Part shown: positions 1 to 21,784 of the stretch, piece after piece
How the letters are laid out: each line of letters opens with the position of its first letter
Position numbering within the stretch: position 1 is the first letter of the stretch
Virus record (IMG/VR): IMGVR_UViG_3300031999_002727
Span: 1-21,930 of that record
Direction: 5' to 3' (one strand)
DNA: 21,930 bases
Source: a virus
The notes under the pieces: model-generated
Databases searched by the model: none
Seen by the model: the letters and a program-made list of their open reading frames with translations, nothing else
Told to the model about the DNA's origin: nothing
Made by a program: the position numbers and the translations under genes

Positions 1-178
1 GTGTGCCGCCAGTTACCGTACCGCTGTTTGTAATCGTTCCCGATATAACAGCCGTCACAGTACCTGTAACAATGGCACCAGAAATAGTACCACCGGAAAT
101 AGTACCAGTGGATGTTAATGTTCCAGTGAGTTTGCTATTTGTGATTGTGCAAACTAGATTGCCTTTGAAAGTTGGCAT
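1..178 (-). CDS. Thr/Gly/Ser-rich repeat protein, N-terminal part (possible virion surface or fibre protein)
   Basis: The reading frame opens at the ATG on 176-178 and runs off the left edge, so only about 59 residues are visible. A ribosome binding site, GGGAGG, lies about 10 bases upstream. The protein begins MPTFKGNLVC and then becomes a run of short beta-type repeats rich in Gly, Thr, Ser and Ile (for example GTISGGTISGAIVTGTV and SGTITNSGTVTGG). Such repeats are typical of extended beta-solenoid or fibre-like proteins, but the family is not recognised. It follows the major capsid gene in the head operon, which suggests a structural or decoration role by inference. The opposite strand is also open here (3-188), but that is a mirror effect of the repeats. 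Confidence 0.7.
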   Translation of the reverse strand, partial: MPTFKGNLVCTITNSKLTGTLTSTGTISGGTISGAIVTGTVTAVISGTITNSGTVTGGT

Positions 179-202
179 TTGTTTTTGATTCCTCCCTTAG
201 TC

Positions 203-230
203 GGGGGAGTAGTCTTTCAACCACTCCCCC
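203..230 (-). promoter_or_regulatory. Hairpin between the capsid gene and the Thr/Gly-repeat gene
   Basis: GGGGGAGT (203-210) and ACTCCCCC (223-230) form an 8-bp perfect stem with a 12-base loop. There is no T-run after it on the minus strand, so it is not a canonical terminator. On the minus strand its 3' arm holds CTCCC, complementary to the GGGAG of the next ribosome binding site, so an alternative fold could mask that site. It may instead act as an mRNA-stabilising or processing hairpin. Confidence 0.45.
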
Positions 231-251
231 GCCACTTTATTCAAGCGGCGA

Positions 252-1127
252 CTAATAGCCTTTCAGCCAGTAACGCCAATCGGTAACGCCGGCGCACCCG
301 CGCCAGTAAATAGAAGCCTTCCAAATCTTGACATTGTTGTCATACCAAGTATCGATAGACGGACCCTCGCGGTTGAAGAACAAAAGTCCCTGCTTAGCAT
401 TGCCGATGTACCATTCAGTCGCAGAGCTAATCCACGGCCAAACGATCAGGTTCAAAGAACCCTGCAATACATTGATGTCGTTATCGGCATCACCAGGAGA
501 CATACTCGCCTTCAGGATGTTCATTGCCGTATAACGCAGAGAGGGACCGACAATCAGAGTGTCCATTACCAGGCGGATGCGATTACCACGCTCATCATAA
601 GCATTGGTATTTTCCGCTTGGATCAAAGCAGTTTGGAGGTTGGTATAGGTTAGGGCAGTGTCGTTGTCGTTGTCGTAGGAACCACCGACTAGGCTAGGAT
701 GAGTAGCAGAAAAGAAAGCATAGCCATCGTAAATGGCAGCAGTAGAACTAAATACACCATAGGCAAGATCTTCCTTCAGATAGGAAACGCCACGCGCCCA
801 TGTGCTAGTTACCCGTTTCATAAAGGGAACGAGTTTCTTGCTATCAGCGGCCAGTTCATGCGTTACATTTACGCCATCGGCATAAGGCGCATGAGTGAAT
901 GTAGCCAACCAACCCTCCATCGGATCATGGAACTTGATTGGTTCCCCTTCGGGTTTACTAACAGGGACACCCATTCCAGCACCAGAGGCCCAAACTTCAG
1001 TAGCGTTATCCGAATTTTCGACTTGGAAAATCTTATCGTAAGTGCTTGGCAGACCTTCGTACTGATCGAAGAAATAAGCGTAAAGGTCACGCCGAAGTGC
1101 GTATGCAAAATCTTGAGTTCCGACCAT
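252..1127 (-). CDS. Major capsid protein (HK97-fold, Mu gpT-like)
   Basis: This 291-residue protein is the main shell subunit. The order of neighbours (terminase, portal, minor head, scaffold, small acidic protein, then this gene) is the classical head-operon order. The central segment FFSATHPSLVGG, the stretch LVMDTLIVGPSLRYTAMNIL and the C-terminal LNLIVWPWISSATEWYIG match the layout of Mu gpT-like and related HK97-fold capsid proteins: an F..THP loop, a LIVGP strand and a hydrophobic C-terminal domain. The length is on the short side, consistent with a separate scaffold gene instead of a fused N-terminal delta domain. The ATG is preceded by GAGGGAGA. It lies 12 bases after the decoration-type gene. 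The identification is by motif and context. Confidence 0.88.
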   Translation of the reverse strand: MVGTQDFAYALRRDLYAYFFDQYEGLPSTYDKIFQVENSDNATEVWASGAGMGVPVSKPEGEPIKFHDPMEGWLATFTHAPYADGVNVTHELAADSKKLVPFMKRVTSTWARGVSYLKEDLAYGVFSSTAAIYDGYAFFSATHPSLVGGSYDNDNDTALTYTNLQTALIQAENTNAYDERGNRIRLVMDTLIVGPSLRYTAMNILKASMSPGDADNDINVLQGSLNLIVWPWISSATEWYIGNAKQGLLFFNREGPSIDTWYDNNVKIWKASIYWRGCAGVTDWRYWLKGY

Positions 1128-2351: not shown

Positions 2352-2949
2352 TTCTATACTCCAAGTGACATTTACAATTGCTGCCGCAAACGGTTTGCCC
2401 AGGATAAGTCGGCAGAGTCATGGTGGTATAAGGACCGCCATAGGCAAGACTAGGGCATTGAGTACAGTGCTGTGCGCCATCATCCAGAATCCAGTCAATG
2501 ATTACCGTTGATTGCATGGACCGTGCCTTCGCTTCATTATAGGAACCCCACACCCTACCCCAACGGTCCAGGCGAAACTCCTGTGCTTCAAAACTAGTAT
2601 CACGAATATCTTGTACAAAATCAGTAGCCCACTGCTGGTACTTGCCAGTTATCTCAGCAATTAAATCACCAGCGTTTGAGGGAAGTTCTGTCATGGTTTG
2701 AAAGGCTTGCGCTTCCATGATTCCGGCAAGGATGGCACGGGTATGGAAGTGGGCTAGGAGGGCCAATAACAAGAGCAGAAAAAAAGTAGTGGCCTTATCT
2801 TTCTCCTCAATCCTCTTGGCCGCTTCCCAATCCCGCCTCAGATCTGTGTCAAACTCGTCTTCCAGGTCAAGAATGTATCGCTCCGCATCGGAGGGTTTTT
2901 TCATCTTATGCAGGAGGCTGTTTAGTTCCGCCAGTATTGACCTGTCCAC
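2335..2949 (-). CDS. Minor head / head morphogenesis protein with C-terminal Cys cluster
   Basis: This 204-residue protein lies directly after the portal gene, the usual place for Mu gpF / SPP1 gp7-like head morphogenesis proteins. The N-terminal half is helical and contains a leucine stretch (about residues 55-66, TTFFLLLLLALLAHF). The C-terminal part has DDGAQHCTQCPSLA, then TLPTYPGQTVCGSNCKCHLE, the conserved cysteine and histidine pattern seen at the end of many such proteins and probably a metal site. The protein is shorter than typical gpF (over 400 residues), so it is a compact version. Its start overlaps the portal gene by 44 bases. The ATG choice is the best available; a weak GGTGG-like signal precedes it. 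Confidence 0.75.
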   Translation of the reverse strand: MDRSILAELNSLLHKMKKPSDAERYILDLEDEFDTDLRRDWEAAKRIEEKDKATTFFLLLLLALLAHFHTRAILAGIMEAQAFQTMTELPSNAGDLIAEITGKYQQWATDFVQDIRDTSFEAQEFRLDRWGRVWGSYNEAKARSMQSTVIIDWILDDGAQHCTQCPSLAYGGPYTTMTLPTYPGQTVCGSNCKCHLEYRNAIQK

Positions 2950-4345
2950 TGATATACCCTTCCACCTTAGATTTTACAGTACGTACACCATCTATCACTT
3001 CGCGGGGAATACCACCAGGAGTTATCTGACTGCGGATGGCCTTGTCAATGTCGTTTTCTTTGTCAGATTCCGCTTCCTTAAAGATTTTGACAATCTCATC
3101 TTCAGTGTAGCCAAACTCGCGCAGGGCTTGCTTGCGACTAATTACATACTTCTCTAATTTCATGGCAATCTCATTGGTTAGAACGCTACGATCCTGCGGA
3201 GAAACAGACTTCCAGCGGATTTCAGTCTCTGGTGGAATCTCACCATTATATTGACCTAGATATTTACCCATGGTCAGCAAGATCTGATTCAACCGCTCAT
3301 AACCATCGCCAAGGGAGATTTGCCGTTCCAGTGCCTTGTTATTCAGCGCGGCATGGGAACGTTCCAAGGATTCACCAGAAGGTAAACCACCAGTTAATTT
3401 GCCAAGGGCAGAACGTGGTGTAGCAGAAATCTCACACAAGTTCTCGATCATACCGTCAATTGCCAGGCGGAGATTGGTCAAGTCTGCGGGTACAAGTTGA
3501 GAAACCTTTACTTGATTATTGAACATCCAAACTTCACCGGGACCACTCTCTAAACCAGTGTCCGGTACAATCTCTCCCTCTAGCCCAGAAACCGTAGTTT
3601 GCGGGAATCCGTGCAAGTCCGCAACCTTCAACAGATCAACGCCCATCTTGTTAATCGCATCCTGGGGACCGATCACGTTTACCAGTTCTGATTCGCCCAA
3701 GGCAGTATCTACCAGTTTATTTTTAAAATGCACAACTGGCAGAATATTGAATGGATTCTCCACTCTTTCTATCGGAGTCCAATTCTTTGCCGGACTCTTA
3801 CTGGTATCATCGGTAGAACTGTATTTTTCAACGCGGTCTGTATAATATTTATTCATCCGCATCATGGCAACGCCATTTTTATCATGGTCATGCCACATTT
3901 TAATAGCGTGCTTAAAACGTTCACCGCTAACTTCATCGTACATTGGATAAATTGCATCAGAAGGATTGAAATAGATATGAATATCGTTGTTATCATCTGG
4001 CCAAGCAATCAAATAAGAATCGCCAGAGATAATGGAATTACGATGGACTTTAATCGAAGAAGCTAAGGCTTTGTTCTTACGCCACAGATCCCATAACCAT
4101 TTACGGGCCTTATCATCGTCACAGAGAATACCGTCAATCTTTAGTTTGGCTACCAGGGCATCAACGACGGGAGCGCAGTAGTTAATCACCAGCCCGTAAG
4201 TAGATTCCAAAACTTTTTTGGACGCATCGGGCATTTTCAGATCATGGTTGCCATCGTAATACCGCTGGTACTTGTCTATTTTCTCCCAGTAATCCTCAAT
4301 CGCCTGTCGTTCAAAGTCCATAAATGAAGCCGAAATTAGTCCCAT
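2906..4345 (-). CDS. Portal protein (SPP1 gp6-like)
   Basis: This 479-residue protein forms the dodecameric ring at the capsid vertex through which DNA enters and leaves. The N-terminal region (RYYDGNHDLKMPDA near residue 30, then GLVINYCAPVVDALVAKLKI) is the hallmark of the SPP1_gp6-like portal family: a Y..G.H tract followed by N....VVD....L. Further family-like segments are FNPSDAIYPMYDE and the central NPFNILPVVHFKN. The C-terminal third is helical (crown/barrel region). It is preceded by terL with 7 bases between genes and followed by the minor head gene, as in SPP1. Length is typical for the family. Confidence 0.92.
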   Translation of the reverse strand: MGLISASFMDFERQAIEDYWEKIDKYQRYYDGNHDLKMPDASKKVLESTYGLVINYCAPVVDALVAKLKIDGILCDDDKARKWLWDLWRKNKALASSIKVHRNSIISGDSYLIAWPDDNNDIHIYFNPSDAIYPMYDEVSGERFKHAIKMWHDHDKNGVAMMRMNKYYTDRVEKYSSTDDTSKSPAKNWTPIERVENPFNILPVVHFKNKLVDTALGESELVNVIGPQDAINKMGVDLLKVADLHGFPQTTVSGLEGEIVPDTGLESGPGEVWMFNNQVKVSQLVPADLTNLRLAIDGMIENLCEISATPRSALGKLTGGLPSGESLERSHAALNNKALERQISLGDGYERLNQILLTMGKYLGQYNGEIPPETEIRWKSVSPQDRSVLTNEIAMKLEKYVISRKQALREFGYTEDEIVKIFKEAESDKENDIDKAIRSQITPGGIPREVIDGVRTVKSKVEGYISGQVNTGGTKQPPA

Positions 4346-4352
4346 AGTCCCC

Positions 4353-5576
4353 TCAGCCGGAATAATAATTGAATGTCTTTACCCGCATGTTGCTCCGGTT
4401 CAGCCCATAGACAAGCATTGCCAACATAATCACGCAGTCGTCATGCTTTCCTTTCGGCGCTCCCGATTTCAGATGCCCAGTAGGAGAAGTTTGATATTCA
4501 AATGCCCTTAGTTCTTCCACCAGTACATCAATCTTGGGATAAGATATTTTCTCTTGCTCCAAGGCCAGGGATAAAGCATCAATCAAATTGGCCTTGCTCA
4601 AAGTCTGAATGGTGATACCTTCTACATTCAAGCCGGTATGGCGCAGATCTTCCAGAATCGGAAGTCCCATCGCTGTAGAATCAATATATGTTTTGGCATG
4701 GTATTTGGTAGCAAGATTCGTTATTCGTATTTTCTGCGAATTGAAATCCAATTTACCAAACCGCTCAAATGCCACTACATGACCGCTGGCTGTATCCATC
4801 ACGCCAAGAACCGTGAAGTCCTCGTAACGGGCCACATCGACACTCAAAATATAATTGTGATATTGTTGCGGCGCTTCTAAACTACCCTTAACGCAAGCCT
4901 CAATGTTATTGAATACAGCACCAGAATCAGAAATAAATTCTGCCAGAAATTCTTGGCGATAGATGCGGTCTGGCAGAAGTTGTTTCTGTTTCTCCAACTC
5001 TATGGCAGGAAAGAAGGGATTAGTCGAAGTGGGGAAACGGAAAGATTGCCAATCGGGATCTACGCCAGAAAGCCCTAACATGTAAATGTCATAGACCCAG
5101 TTGAATGCCAATGGGGTAGTGATAAATATTGCCCTGCCCTGCTTGTCGCCCAAGGCCGGTGAAAGGGATTGATACCATGCCACGCGCCCATCTACCCGCG
5201 CTGCTTCATCAATAATTACCAGGTCCAAACCAACGGAAACAAGGGAAAGCGGATTGTCGGCTGAGCGGGCCTCAATATAAGTACCATTCTTCAACTCAAT
5301 TGACTTCTGGGCATTGTGCATGTGTAATACAGCTTCACGCGGCATATACTTCACCACAGTACGCCAGAGGGTTTGAGTAAGGGGATAAGAGGGGGCAACT
5401 AACCAGATATGAGCGTTCGGCTTTCTCAGCCCTGCCATAATCGCTTCATTTGCGGCCGCCAGGGACTTACCCCAGCGACGACCACAAATCAGAGTGCGAA
5501 AACGGGCTTTACTTTGGTGAAACTCCTTCTGTGCCGGATGCGGGCGATAGGGGATTGTTTTCACTATCTCCGTCAT
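4353..5576 (-). CDS. terL: Terminase large subunit (ATPase and nuclease)
   Basis: I choose the ATG at 5574-5576, giving 407 residues. The frame stays open to 5711, but that part overlaps terS and lacks a good ribosome binding site. The ATPase domain shows a Walker A variant GRRWGKS (residues 32-38), Walker B LDLVIIDEAAR (about 117-127) and a coupling motif ITTP. The C-terminal RNase H-like nuclease has ILSVDVARYEDFTVLG with its first acidic residue, TYIDSTAMG in the middle and HDDCVIMLAML near the end. The enzyme translocates DNA into the procapsid through the portal and cuts the concatemer. It overlaps terS by 68 bases. Confidence 0.95.
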   Translation of the reverse strand: MTEIVKTIPYRPHPAQKEFHQSKARFRTLICGRRWGKSLAAANEAIMAGLRKPNAHIWLVAPSYPLTQTLWRTVVKYMPREAVLHMHNAQKSIELKNGTYIEARSADNPLSLVSVGLDLVIIDEAARVDGRVAWYQSLSPALGDKQGRAIFITTPLAFNWVYDIYMLGLSGVDPDWQSFRFPTSTNPFFPAIELEKQKQLLPDRIYRQEFLAEFISDSGAVFNNIEACVKGSLEAPQQYHNYILSVDVARYEDFTVLGVMDTASGHVVAFERFGKLDFNSQKIRITNLATKYHAKTYIDSTAMGLPILEDLRHTGLNVEGITIQTLSKANLIDALSLALEQEKISYPKIDVLVEELRAFEYQTSPTGHLKSGAPKGKHDDCVIMLAMLVYGLNRSNMRVKTFNYYSG

Positions 5577-6015
5577 CTGTCTTTGTGTTTTCTTCAGCCT
5601 CGCCGTTGGAAAGGTCAAAGTCAGGTTTGCTTGATTCATCATCCATCCATTTGTAGGTAGTTTCAGTAGGCTTTGTGATTGCCTTGGTTTTACCTTCAGA
5701 GTAATCGCCAAGGACTTCCAGTAAGAGTTTTGCAGCAGGGATATTAGGAGTTTTGGAAGTAGCAGATCGAATTAGAGCGCGGTATATGTCCGTGCGGGCA
5801 CGGTGCAGGGCATCATCGGTCAGGGCCGCAACACATTCCCAGAAACCAGGTGCTTGCGACCATTTCTGTAACGTAACAAGGTTTTTGCCAATAGAACGGG
5901 CAAAACCTTCAATCTCCTCAGAGTTCGGCCCCTTCTCTATGATGAACTGCATGTAGAGCCGTTGTTCGGGACCAAACTGTTGGAAAAGTTTTGCTATTTC
6001 TTCGGTGTCAGACAT
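5509..6015 (-). CDS. terS: Terminase small subunit (DNA recognition)
   Basis: This 168-residue protein sits immediately before terL and overlaps it. The N-terminal half looks like the helix-turn-helix of phage small terminases: ARSIGKNLVTLQKWSQAPGFW contains a turn-containing recognition helix (LQKWSQ). The middle (ALTDDALHRARTDIYRALI) is helical and likely oligomerises, and the C-terminal 50 residues are acidic and Ser/Thr-rich, presumably disordered. In the family the protein forms a ring that binds the pac or cos site, often located in or near its own gene. The identification rests on position, the HTH and size. Confidence 0.8.
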   Translation of the reverse strand: MSDTEEIAKLFQQFGPEQRLYMQFIIEKGPNSEEIEGFARSIGKNLVTLQKWSQAPGFWECVAALTDDALHRARTDIYRALIRSATSKTPNIPAAKLLLEVLGDYSEGKTKAITKPTETTYKWMDDESSKPDFDLSNGEAEENTKTDDGDSENNPLSPASGTEGVSPK

Positions 6016-6027
6016 AAACTAACTTAA

Positions 6028-6303
6028 TTAAGTAGAAGTAATAATCCTAAGAGCCTGTGTACTAGTAGTGGTAACATCTTCAACCGTATAAGTAGTAGCG
6101 CAAGAAATTGATCCGCTAGAACTGGTATAAATTACATTTCCGTTCCAATAAGGCCAGTAGGGATATAATGGATAAATTGTTCTTGTTGGAGCAAAGGCTT
6201 TGTCCAGCACTTCCTGCAACTCTTTTACTTCTTCCAGACTAAGCGCAAATTCACTCTTACCGATCTTCAAAACTACTTTCTTGATTTTTACAGATTTACT
6301 CAT
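6028..6303 (-). CDS. Hypothetical protein with Tyr/Pro/Trp-rich linker
   Basis: This 91-residue protein was not recognised. Residues 1-38 look like a small alpha/beta unit (VKIKKVVLKIGKSEFALSL followed by a helix EEVKELQEVLDKAF). Next comes an aromatic linker (IYPLYPYWPYWNG) and a Ser/Thr-rich tail (SSSGSIS...TTTSTQALRIITST). The ribosome binding site GGAGGAAAG before the ATG is strong. It lies 12 bases upstream of terS in the packaging operon. The N-terminal strand-helix resembles short phage proteins that follow zinc ribbons, but no function can be given. Confidence 0.65.
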   Translation of the reverse strand: MSKSVKIKKVVLKIGKSEFALSLEEVKELQEVLDKAFAPTRTIYPLYPYWPYWNGNVIYTSSSGSISCATTYTVEDVTTTSTQALRIITST

Positions 6304-6339
6304 TGCTTTCCTCCATTGAATTTATGGACATAAGACATA

Positions 6340-6459
6340 CTACTTTTCTACGATGGTTACTTTCCCTTTAAGGAAATTATCAACCACTTGCTTCCCCAAC
6401 ACACTTTGCAGAGTTTCCTCTTTGGGGGTTTCTTCTGCTTCAATCTTTTCTTCAGTCAT
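6340..6459 (-). CDS. Small acidic hypothetical protein
   Basis: This 39-residue frame starts MTEEKIEAEETPKEE and ends KGKVTIVEK. Its ATG overlaps the end of the zinc-ribbon gene by 8 bases, and AGGAG lies about 9 bases upstream, both favouring real translation. The first half is acidic and probably disordered. The second half (LGKQVVDNFLKGKVTIV) could form a helix-strand unit. No function is proposed. Confidence 0.55.
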   Translation of the reverse strand: MTEEKIEAEETPKEETLQSVLGKQVVDNFLKGKVTIVEK

Positions 6460-6598
6460 TTTTTATGCTCCTATCGGGGAACTTCAAAACACCACCACAA
6501 AACTTACAGATAATTTCGCCAAGTGGTTTTACTTCCCCAAGATACTTGCCACAGAGCCAGCAATGTAGTAAAACTGGTCTGTCAGTTTTTTTAGTCAT
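6452..6598 (-). CDS. Com-like zinc ribbon protein
   Basis: This 48-residue protein has two CxxC pairs: HCWLCGKYLGEV near residue 12 and IICKFCGGVL near residue 30. The spacing and the GK.L segment after the first pair resemble the Mu Com family of small zinc-finger proteins, where Com binds mom mRNA and activates its translation. Here no mom-like gene is adjacent, so RNA binding is only an analogy. The gene lies immediately downstream of the structured region at 6636-6935 and opens the packaging operon. The ribosome binding site is weak (GGAA about 5 bases before the ATG). A plain zinc ribbon with another role is equally possible. Confidence 0.65.
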   Translation of the reverse strand: MTKKTDRPVLLHCWLCGKYLGEVKPLGEIICKFCGGVLKFPDRSIKND

Positions 6599-6635
6599 TA
6601 CATTCCATTTCTCGTTAATTGCCTCAGAGGGAACT

Positions 6636-6935
6636 TACGCATAATAGGATGTAATGCGGGGTAGGATATGCCTTTGACGCAATAGGTGCGTCCCCGTTGC
6701 AACGGATCTCCTGGCCTTCGGCTAAGAGCATATCCCAACCCCTGAACGGTAGCTGCTCTATACAACTAATGGCTTACCGTTGGCCCCACGTTACTCGCGT
6801 GAGGGGTGATCCTTGCTGCCCCATCGTGTTAATCCTTCTTCCAGCGCGCAAGCACAGACTGGGGAAGCTAATAACCCTGCCCGAGGCCCCGAGTGGACCA
6901 CTAGAGCTTCCGAGTGGGACAAGTTGGGCAGGGAG
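6636..6935 (-). ncRNA. Candidate structured RNA, multi-hairpin, upstream of the packaging operon
   Basis: This stretch of about 300 bases is clearly more GC-rich than its surroundings and has no convincing gene on either strand, but it is filled with inverted repeats. The main stems are 6638-6642/6654-6658, 6658-6662+6664-6671/6728-6735+6738-6742 (13 pairs) enclosing three hairpins (6676-6681/6687-6692; 6694-6705 palindrome; 6714-6716/6720-6722), 6745-6751/6775-6781, 6784-6790/6798-6805 with one bulge, 6838-6844/6859-6867 and 6875-6882/6926-6933. The strand is chosen because all genes are on minus. It does not match tRNA, tmRNA, RNase P RNA or group I intron landmarks I know. It could be a trans-acting phage RNA, a packaging RNA or a long leader. 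Confidence 0.65.
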
Positions 6936-6940
6936 TAAAC

Positions 6941-6954
6941 CAAAATTTATTTTG
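6941..6954. repeat. Palindromic box CAAAATNNATTTTG, copy 1
   Basis: CAAAATTTATTTTG. On the minus strand the stop codon TAA of the HExxH gene is embedded in it. It is one of seven exact matches to CAAAATNNATTTTG in the window, and it sits between that gene and the structured RNA. Confidence 0.7.
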
Positions 6955-7345
6955 ATTCACTTCGCTCAATCAAATTGTAGAAAGCAATAGCAAGACTGCC
7001 GACCAATATCTCCAAATGATCTTCAACCCGCTTTTTTACCTCGTCAGCGGAAAGGGCATCTACATAAGTGTGGATAATATCGTTTGTAACAGAGCGGAGA
7101 AAAGCAGAGTACGCATGAACCGTTTCGTGATAGATGTTCTTTAAACAATCCTCATGACTATGAGTCATATCCGGGTGACGTAAATTCCAGTGTGTATAGA
7201 TCTTCTTATGTACCGTATCTACTTCATTGATCGCACAACACGTTTCCCCTACCGGTAATATCCGATCTGCTTCTGCCATCCAACCTGGAAGGCCAATCAA
7301 GGGAAGGATACGATTTAGGTGGGAGAGAATTTCCTTGATGGTCAT
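6947..7345 (-). CDS. HExxH-motif protein (putative small zinc metallopeptidase-like)
   Basis: This 132-residue protein contains IYHETVHAYSAFL at residues 71-83, an HExxH zinc-binding motif in a predicted helix, preceded by H62, H64 and C67. A third zinc ligand could be one of the later acidic residues (DALSADEV... or EDHLEIL), as in minimal zincins. In phages such small zincin-like proteins are often of unknown role. The C-terminal helix AIAFYNLIERSESK ends the protein inside a palindromic box. The start overlaps the glycosyltransferase stop by ATGA, so it belongs to the sugar-module operon and might act on a host or virion surface component (inference). Confidence 0.65.
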   Translation of the reverse strand: MTIKEILSHLNRILPLIGLPGWMAEADRILPVGETCCAINEVDTVHKKIYTHWNLRHPDMTHSHEDCLKNIYHETVHAYSAFLRSVTNDIIHTYVDALSADEVKKRVEDHLEILVGSLAIAFYNLIERSESK

Positions 7346-8070
7346 TCGCTGAATTTCAACTTCGCCAAGTATTCATCGTAAATCTCATGCGGCAAACGAC
7401 CATGCTTCTTCAAAAACCATTCTTTGCCAATTTCAAGATCTTTACGCCAGTCGATACCGTTAAGTTCCATAGCGCCATGCCCAATGTGGTGGAGTCGAGC
7501 GCGACCAATTACATTAACGTAGTCTTTTGCCAAGAGGTGACAACTAAAATCATCATCTACGTACTGTAAAGAAGGAGCATTCTCATCAAAACCGCCTACG
7601 TCCCAGAATGCTTTCTTACTAATCATAGATATGCCATCTACGATGCGGGGAACATGATGGAAGCAATGACCAACGGGAACTTGGCTGAAATCTTGAAAGC
7701 CTGAAACATTACACGAAGCTGCACCTAACCAACCCAGTTTGTATTGGCTACTAAAACTGGCGTGATCTTCTACCATTAGGTTCAGCCAGTTCGGTGTAAC
7801 TACCAGATCGTCGTTCATAAACCAAATAAGATCCTGTTTGGCAAATTCAACACCACGGTTTTGTTTTGCACCGTAGTTGTTATGGCAGACTACCAAACTG
7901 GTTGGTATATCGAACAGGTCCAGAATCTCTTGTGTCTTTGCCGGATCGGAACCGGAATCACACACCACGACTTCAAAGGGAACCTTATGGTCGTTAAAGA
8001 TAATCATGGAATCAAGGAGCAGAATTAAAAAGGGGTAAGAGTTAAATGTAGATACTATGACGCTTACCAT
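7342..8070 (-). CDS. Family 2 glycosyltransferase (GT-A fold)
   Basis: This 242-residue protein begins MVSVIVSTFNSYPFL, the typical GT2 N-terminus, followed by FEVVVCDSGSD for nucleotide binding and NRGVEFAKQDLIWFMNDDLVV with the DxD-like motif at residues 86-88. The later VGGFDEN and YVDDDFSCHLL correspond to the acceptor-side acidic motif (ED-like) of the family. It should transfer a sugar from a nucleotide-sugar donor to a glycan, lipid or protein. No membrane segment is seen, so it is probably cytoplasmic. It is coupled to the methyltransferase upstream and the HExxH gene downstream, and two NDP-sugar enzymes lie in the same operon, so a dedicated sugar may be made and attached. Confidence 0.88.
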   Translation of the reverse strand: MVSVIVSTFNSYPFLILLLDSMIIFNDHKVPFEVVVCDSGSDPAKTQEILDLFDIPTSLVVCHNNYGAKQNRGVEFAKQDLIWFMNDDLVVTPNWLNLMVEDHASFSSQYKLGWLGAASCNVSGFQDFSQVPVGHCFHHVPRIVDGISMISKKAFWDVGGFDENAPSLQYVDDDFSCHLLAKDYVNVIGRARLHHIGHGAMELNGIDWRKDLEIGKEWFLKKHGRLPHEIYDEYLAKLKFSE

Positions 8071-10829: not shown

Positions 10830-11198
10830 CTACGTCCTCAGCATTTTATAAAGATCGTAAATACCACTTTCTAACTTGGCGATATATGCTTGCAAAGATA
10901 AAGATTCGCGTTGAATATCTTCAAGCCAGATTGTCGCATCACCGATCACATCACGGGTACTGGGTTGCCATGATTTTCTACGGGGAAGGTTGTTCCACTT
11001 TCTAATCAAATGCTCCCTATCGTGTTTTGCCTCTTCCCATGAAGTTGCACATGCTGCAACTGGATCAATCTTTAATCCACAACCAGTACAGCGAACTATC
11101 TCATAAAATGCCTCACGGACAACTTTGGCTTCTCCACCGCAACCAGGACAGGGCAAGAGATCTGTGTCATTATCCAAATTTATTTTGGCTTTTTCCAT
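10830..11198 (-). CDS. Lar-like restriction-alleviation-family zinc protein
   Basis: The ATG at 11196-11198 is preferred (122 residues) because GGAGGG lies 6 bases upstream; the frame stays open to 11246 without such a site. Residues 14-22 read LLPCPGCGG and a second pair follows in VRCTGCGLK, then EEAKHDREHLIRKWNNLPRR. The pattern PCP.CGG......V.C..CG......A...WN.R is that of Lar, a Rac-prophage protein that lowers EcoK restriction, and of many phage paralogues whose function is untested. The C-terminal 40 residues are helical and have no counterpart in Lar that I recognise. It is the first gene of the sugar-module operon. Confidence 0.72.
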   Translation of the reverse strand: MEKAKINLDNDTDLLPCPGCGGEAKVVREAFYEIVRCTGCGLKIDPVAACATSWEEAKHDREHLIRKWNNLPRRKSWQPSTRDVIGDATIWLEDIQRESLSLQAYIAKLESGIYDLYKMLRT

Positions 11199-11217
11199 TG
11201 TTCCCTCCATGTAAGTA

Positions 11218-11246
11218 AACCTACCACTTTTTTGGAATTGTGTCAA
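11218..11246 (-). promoter_or_regulatory. Sigma70-like promoter in front of the Lar-like gene
   Basis: On the minus strand TTGACA (11241-11246, perfect -35) is followed after 17 bases by TAGGTT (11218-11223), a weak -10. The predicted start lies about 12 bases before the ribosome binding site, leaving a very short leader. The spacing is ideal, but the -10 matches only half of the consensus. Confidence 0.5.
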
Positions 11247-17264: not shown

Positions 17265-17407
17265 GTAAACGCAAGATAAGTGAAAATATATTTTACCGAC
17301 AGGGGCGGCCAGGGGTAAAGCATGGGGAGGATGATGAAGGGGTCAAATTTCAAAAAATTTTGTAAGTTATAGATAGAATGCGTTAAGGCCGTTGTGACAC
17401 TTGGCGA
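17265..17407. other. Non-coding spacer with AT-rich palindromes
   Basis: These 143 bases have no gene. GAAAATATATTTTA near 17282 and CAAAAAATTTTG near 17351 resemble, but do not match, the palindromic box family. TGTGACACTT occurs at 17393-17402 and recurs at 17516-17525 and 18075-18084. Confidence 0.4.
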
Positions 17408-17488
17408 TCATATTGCTGGTGTTAGCAATATGATATTTGTGACAGTTTCATCAAATGATGAAAGTAACAGTTTTCTTAAATAAGAAAA
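17408..17488. repeat. Row of three hairpins next to the terminator
   Basis: Three perfect stems follow each other: TCATATTGCT-ggtgtt-AGCAATATGA (17408-17433, 10 bp), TTTCATC-aaat-GATGAAA (17446-17463, 7 bp) and TTTTCTT-aaat-AAGAAAA (17471-17488, 7 bp). Between them stand GTGACAG and GTAACAG. With the terminator at 17490-17511 they form a four-hairpin block bracketed by TGTGACACTT on both sides. The sequences of the stems differ, so they are not copies of each other. Confidence 0.75.
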
Positions 17489-17656
17489 ACGGCAGTTCTG
17501 GGAAACTGCCGCGAGTGTGACACTTTTCAACTTTTTCCTTACTCTTTTTCTTCCCTTACGCTTGAACCAGCGTTTTGCTGGCGGTGAGTGACAGTCGTCT
17601 GGATGTGAAGGGCGTTTTCTTGTGTACCATTTTTTGTTTATGTTAATGACGCTCAT
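17408..17656 (-). CDS. Basic hypothetical protein running into the hairpin row
   Basis: The 82-residue frame starts at an ATGA overlap with the upstream gene, which supports translation of at least the N-terminal part (MSVININKKWYTRKRPSHPD, then a very basic KRKGRKRVRKKLKS). After about residue 45 the coding DNA is the terminator hairpin and three more stems, and the stop codon lies in the arm of the last hairpin (17408-17410). A gene reading through its own terminator is odd. Either the natural gene ended earlier and was disrupted, or the C-terminus is incidental. A nucleic-acid-binding role is suggested by charge only. Confidence 0.45.
   Translation of the reverse strand: MSVININKKWYTRKRPSHPDDCHSPPAKRWFKRKGRKRVRKKLKSVTLAAVSQNCRFSYLRKLLLSSFDETVTNIILLTPAI
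17483..17511 (-). terminator. Intrinsic terminator (fourth hairpin of the row)
   Basis: On the minus strand CGGCAGTT-tcccag-AACTGCCG (17490-17511) is a perfect 8-bp GC-rich stem followed by TTTTTCTT. It should end transcription from the right part of the window. Confidence 0.82.
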
Positions 17657-21205: not shown

Positions 21206-21784
21206 TTAGTCCCCAGCCCTTTCCCCTAAATATTCCAGCAATCGTTTTATCTGCCACTCACACTCAGCATCCCATCCAACTGCCCCGGCAGCGGCCCAGG
21301 CAGCGGCCCAGGCAACATCCCCGGCAGCGGCCCAGGCAGCGGCTAGTTTTTCTTTGGTGATTTTCCCGTCCGCAAATAATCTGGCCGCCTCAATCGCTTT
21401 GCGCGGCCGTAGATCGCCCGGATATTTCTTCTCCCAAATTGGCAAGACGTGTTCGGCGCAGTCGGCGGCAAACAATCTTTCCGTCCGTTCATTCCAGTTC
21501 TCGCAGACGGAAAGCAATCGCGCTTGGGCGAATACAATCTTGTCATCGCAGACAATCTGCTCGCCACGGCCCTCAGCAACACAGATCATCGGGCCGAGCC
21601 ATCGGGTTAAATCTTGTTCCTGGCAGAGATGATAACCATGCTTGCAGGGAACCAGTTCGGTCAGTTTTGGCATCCACTTACCCGGCTCCCAAGTGCCATC
21701 CCGTTTTTTAGTGGGCAGATACCACTTGCCCTTGCCGCCATTGTGAGCGGACCCGTCCAGATTAAGAATCTTGTAAAATGTCAT
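21206..21784 (-). CDS. Conserved phage protein with Ala/Trp repeats near the C-terminus
   Basis: This 192-residue protein has an N-terminal part with HGYHLCQEQDLTRWLGPMIC, then a conserved core ERLFAADCAEHVLPIWEKKY, LRPRKAIEAARLFADGKI, and a repeat tract of Ala, Trp and Gly (KLAAAWAAAGDVAWAAAWAA). The core with AIEAAR...A..AAWAA is common in phage and bacterial proteins of unknown function, sometimes noted as an immunity-like (Imm-5-like) C-terminal domain; I rate that as uncertain. In DNA the repeat is a run of GGCAGCGGCCCA-like units at 21281-21345. GGAGGAGAA precedes the ATG, a strong ribosome binding site. Repeat number may vary between relatives. Confidence 0.72.
   Translation of the reverse strand: MTFYKILNLDGSAHNGGKGKWYLPTKKRDGTWEPGKWMPKLTELVPCKHGYHLCQEQDLTRWLGPMICVAEGRGEQIVCDDKIVFAQARLLSVCENWNERTERLFAADCAEHVLPIWEKKYPGDLRPRKAIEAARLFADGKITKEKLAAAWAAAGDVAWAAAWAAAGAVGWDAECEWQIKRLLEYLGERAGD

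Follow-up and report, generated by a model that had tools for sequence, protein, structure and literature searches.

A GC-rich, gene-free gap ahead of a phage packaging operon is a candidate structured mRNA leader

A gene-free gap of 348 bases (positions 6599-6946, minus strand) in the genome of an uncultivated phage may, as we tentatively propose, constitute a cis-acting structured 5′ leader, or intergenic control region, of the packaging/head operon encoded on the same strand. The position of this element, the strand of the genes, the non-coding status and the predicted pairing are the observed part of this reading. A function as RNA is plausible but unproven, and a gap that acts as a DNA site, or has no RNA function at all, is nearly as likely as a leader; the other alternatives weighed below are less likely.

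A long GC-rich gap precedes the packaging genes

The window, that is, the whole stretch of DNA analysed here, comprises 21,930 bases (positions 1-21,930 of IMG/VR record IMGVR_UViG_3300031999_002727), and every credible gene in it is encoded on the minus strand. In the order of transcription, a sugar/methylase module and a 132-aa gene are followed by the element, ORFs of 48, 39 and 91 aa, the terminase subunits, the portal, a scaffold-like protein and the major capsid protein. The 132-aa gene directly upstream of the element (6947-7345, minus strand) is of unknown family, and no relative of it was found. The first gene after the element is the 48-aa ORF (6452-6598, minus strand), which carries a CxxC...CxxC zinc-ribbon pattern; its end overlaps the 39-aa ORF (6340-6459, minus strand), and the 91-aa ORF occupies 6028-6303 on the minus strand. 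Searches of Pfam, PHROG and NCBIfam with the zinc-ribbon ORF reached no family, and its nearest match (37%, E = 0.8) lacks a similar leader. The terminase small subunit (TerS; 5509-6015, minus strand) matched PHROG 7344 (E = 1.6e-5), and the large subunit (TerL; 4353-5711, minus strand), whose true start is probably further downstream, matched Pfam Terminase_6N/6C and PHROG 2 (E = 2.3e-40).

Within 2906-5711 (minus strand) the nearest relatives of neighbouring genes differ: TerL resembles those of Tunturi_4 and Thermus phages, and the portal resembles Streptomyces satellite and actinophage portals, which suggests that the head module is mosaic. Elsewhere in the window, a gene with a Lar (restriction-alleviation) domain (10830-11246, minus strand; Pfam PF14354, E = 8e-9) lies near two DNA methylase genes, and the C-terminal half of a phage protein encoded at 21206-21784 (minus strand) contains a putative Imm-5-like immunity domain (PF21805, E = 1.5e-11).

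The first-pass annotation had described positions 6636-6935 as free of a credible gene and richer in GC than the flanking genes. Both observations hold: the reading frames of the gap are broken by stops or are non-coding by codon usage, its longer open frames gave no PHROG match, and GC content is 0.56 at 6636-6935 and 0.53 over the whole gap vs 0.42-0.45 in the flanks. A GC content as high as that of 6636-6935 occurs in just 30 of 2163 windows of 300 nt. The gap is the longest and GC-richest intergenic gap in the window (0.455 GC overall), long for such a tightly packed genome, and differs in composition from the AT-rich remainder, most other gaps lying at 0.39-0.43 and one at 0.49. In AT-richer genomes, structured RNAs have been found preferentially in long GC-rich gaps (PMC6429828).

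The predicted fold is concentrated next to the start codon

Folding energies were compared with those of dinucleotide shuffles. The element had been called strongly folded; its stems do exist, whereas folding much beyond chance was not found at 6636-6935, where the whole-element z-score is -1.59 on the plus and -0.97 on the minus strand. Both stems named in that description are present, namely a 13-bp stem with a small internal loop (GGGGT/ACCCC together with GGATATGC/GCATATCC) that closes three hairpins, and the 8-bp stem CCCTGCCC/GGGCAGGG. Stems of at least 6 bp are not enriched (8 vs 4.96 ± 2.08 in shuffles, with 34 of 300 shuffles reaching 8), and longer ones are mildly so: four stems of at least 7 bp were observed vs 1.17 in shuffles (reached by 7 of 300), and two of at least 8 bp vs 0.25 (reached by 11 of 300). 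An interrupted stem of at least 13 bp appeared in 3 of 300 shuffles.

The folding signal is concentrated in the 3′ 150 nt of the element (6594-6743), extending past the left boundary first drawn for it. This segment, a predicted four-way junction plus hairpin, reaches z = -4.9 on the minus strand with boundaries picked after seeing the fold. The junction itself (6657-6743, minus strand, 87 nt) consists of the 13-bp interrupted closing stem around its three hairpins, with z = -4.4 on the minus strand (0 of 1000 shuffles) and -4.1 on the plus strand; one of these hairpins is a perfect 12-bp palindrome, CCGTTGCAACGG. The 65-nt start-codon hairpin follows at once (6594-6658, minus strand), with z = -3.5 on the minus strand (3 of 1000 shuffles) and -3.1 on the plus strand. 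Further 5′, the predicted parts comprise a hairpin closed by the 8-bp stem CCCUGCCC/GGGCAGGG (6875-6933, minus strand; z = -2.0 on the minus, -2.8 on the plus strand), an arm GCU.CCCCA/UGGGG.AGC (6815-6868, minus strand) that does not exceed chance (z = -0.3 over 6813-6870), and a hairpin CCUCACG/CGUGGGG with the stem AACGGUA/UACCGUU (6745-6804, minus strand). The latter stem is predicted to compete with a long-range stem between GGUUUAC (6941-6935) and GUAAGCC (6777-6771).

In a window-wide scan of local folds with optimised boundaries, the junction ranked 13; other intergenic regions scored better, as did several folds within genes, and we therefore regard the predicted fold as suggestive rather than exceptional. 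With trimmed boundaries both strands fold nearly equally; with windows fixed at 110 nt, the region of the hairpin scores -3.9 on the minus vs -0.8 on the plus strand.

The strongest local fold of the window, at 17393-17523 (minus strand, z = -7.8), is a GGCAGTT...AACTGCC hairpin followed by GTTTTTCTTA, an arrangement resembling an intrinsic terminator, and then by more AT-rich hairpins. The second strongest (171-279, minus strand, z = -7.4) lies at the end of the capsid gene, where a GC-rich hairpin around GGGGGAGT...ACTCCCCC, lacking a T tail, precedes the ribosome-binding site of the next ORF.

These results bear directly on the closest competitor of the leader, in which there is no functional RNA: the GC-rich gap would be recently acquired or decaying sequence, or a DNA-level operator or packaging site, and its stems would reflect composition chance or DNA palindromes. 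We consider this a serious possibility. It accords with the modest z-scores at 6636-6935, the lack of enrichment of stems of at least 6 bp, the scan rank of the junction and the near-equal folding of the two strands, as well as with the palindrome CCGTTGCAACGG, which has no other exact copy in the window. Against it, the 3′ 150 nt beat nearly all shuffles, the gap is long and not AT-rich as the others are, and a start codon falls within the hairpin.

A predicted hairpin encloses the first start codon of the operon

On the minus strand, CAUUACAU (6656-6649) is predicted to pair with AUGUAAUG (6603-6596) over 8 bp at a pairing probability of 0.98, and the AUG of the zinc-ribbon ORF lies inside AUGUAAUG. 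An adjoining predicted stem pairs the weak ribosome-binding GGA of the same ORF, and the apical part of the hairpin is CCUCUGAG. Start codons of the 132-aa gene, a 164-aa gene and the Lar gene are also predicted to be paired, so start-codon pairing by itself is not special.

If the element is a leader, it would be transcribed together with the operon, and its 3′ 150 nt would fold into the junction and, immediately after it, the hairpin that encloses the start codon and ribosome-binding site. The hairpin would then keep translation of the zinc-ribbon gene and of the overlapping 39-aa ORF low until opened, possibly by a protein that binds the apical loop. The leader reading draws on the location of the element directly before the first start codon and on the same strand, on the z-scores of the hairpin and junction, and on the gap being the longest and GC-richest and devoid of coding signal. 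Weighing against it are the post hoc choice of the boundaries behind these z-scores, the rank of the junction in the scan, and a promoter search that yielded no convincing candidate.

The predicted arrangement invites comparison with the com-mom pair of phage Mu, in which the zinc-finger protein Com is the proposed opener of a start-codon hairpin in mom mRNA and selects the motif CC(N)2-3GAG (PMC6483171). In both cases a start codon would be held in a hairpin, here by prediction, and the first ORF of the present operon encodes a small protein with two CxxC motifs. The apical CCUCUGAG fits CC(N)2-3GAG, and a second copy, CCAGGAG, lies in the junction; the minus strand of the window contains 28 copies, giving about 0.45 expected in 353 nt vs 2 observed, a mild excess that is weak evidence. 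The two systems also differ: the 48-aa zinc-ribbon ORF falls outside the Pfam Com family (no match at an E limit of 10), no mom gene was recognised, and here the zinc-ribbon gene's own start codon is the one hidden.

The element matches no known RNA family

The first-pass annotation had assigned the element to no known class, and a search of Rfam 15 agrees: at the gathering score, no riboswitch, ribozyme, intron, RNase P or tmRNA matched it. Relaxed thresholds produced implausible matches (to a snoRNA within the element, weakly to SAM-III outside it and to a BiP IRES elsewhere), and none of the models for group I/II introns, tmRNA or RNase P was credibly matched. The element contains GCCAGGAGA, which we take to resemble a cobalamin-riboswitch box; this candidate was dropped, as no cobalamin model matched. 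The remaining description, a structured non-coding element just before the packaging genes, is a fair one with no Rfam family attached. Structured leaders and riboswitches recovered by searching GC-rich intergenic regions (PMC6429828) share with the element a gap that is long, GC-rich and directly followed by a gene, and its junction followed by a start-codon hairpin recalls their layout of sensing domain and expression platform. They differ from it in that no conservation was seen here and no known aptamer model matched.

GOLLD and ROOL had been mentioned as examples of large phage RNAs, and the element, too, is a phage-encoded RNA candidate with multiple stems. ROOL env-120, by comparison, measures 659 nt and many GOLLD RNAs exceed 800 nt, and both classes often lie near tRNA islands (PMC12286853), whereas the element, at about 350 nt, is roughly half as long, a search of the window found no tRNA, no GOLLD or ROOL match appeared at E up to 10 (6300-7350), and the thermodynamic signal is modest; we do not place it in that group. 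A free-standing phage ncRNA of an unreported class, trans-acting or serving as a scaffold and arising from the gap by processing or by transcription within it, would be in keeping with a predicted multi-helix fold of about 350 nt that matches no Rfam family. We consider it unlikely, given that no promoter stood out from chance and neither end of the element showed a terminator, and given the lack of homologues among the sequences searched, the modest folding energy and the absence of nearby tRNAs, unlike many GOLLD and ROOL RNAs (PMC12286853). Because the element lies directly before a start codon and on the operon strand, a cis-acting mRNA leader is favoured over a free ncRNA.

Less probable still is an antitermination leader of the late operon. 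HK022 put and the EAR RNA are antitermination leaders, and by analogy a nascent folded RNA would modify RNA polymerase and let it pass the terminators within the long head operon. The element does head a long operon and is predicted to form a multi-stem leader, but it matched neither EAR nor any other leader in Rfam, and no promoter was mapped. A packaging RNA that works in the motor translocating the DNA, as in phi29, had also been raised and is highly improbable: the position of the element near and upstream of the packaging genes is the sole likeness, no packaging-RNA model of Rfam matched, and the terminase is of the two-subunit TerS/TerL kind, which is not known to need RNA.

No relative of the element turned up in the collections searched

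A blastn search of the element against phages and plasmids found no similar DNA, and when four stretches of it were scanned against IMG/VR as exact patterns, only isolated short, chance-like matches came back. We assembled 243 loci from viruses and bacteria, each carrying a TerL match on the same strand and none exceeding 48% identity in TerL; nhmmer detected no similarity to the element in them. A single-sequence covariance model did not find it in about 195 loci and 50 whole records, a weak probe whose negatives exclude only fairly close homologues. Nor was the element found in about 800 whole genomes from three phyla, an uninformative result. Records very near the window were possibly left out of the searched collections, among which the phage is a singleton. 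For the leader reading, the lack of a homologue, and hence of covariation, counts against it.

Among 177 TerL relatives with at least 1.5 kb of upstream sequence, 122 have a gap of at least 150 bases there, whereas a gap at least 5 points GC-richer than its locus occurs in only 11, by crude ORF-based delimitation of gaps. None of the closest relatives is among these 11, and the lack of a comparable GC-rich gap in them likewise speaks against a leader. In one of the terminase relatives, a different phage (locus L256, 2780-3640), a gap of about 850 bases without an obvious gene, partly GC-rich, lies upstream of the terminase genes; its sequence is unrelated to the element.

Implications

The most far-reaching version of the leader reading, which we regard as improbable, would be a new class of phage cis-regulatory RNA: a multi-domain leader of about 350 nt whose junction, possibly bound by the zinc-ribbon protein, controls the start-codon hairpin and the onset of the packaging operon. 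As it stands, the element is one sequence without relatives and chiefly a target for re-examination once related genomes exist. Should it prove genuine, it would place a structured leader not so far listed at the head of a phage packaging operon, where few RNA controls are known, and would connect a small phage zinc-ribbon protein with translation control in a testable way beyond the com-mom pair of Mu.
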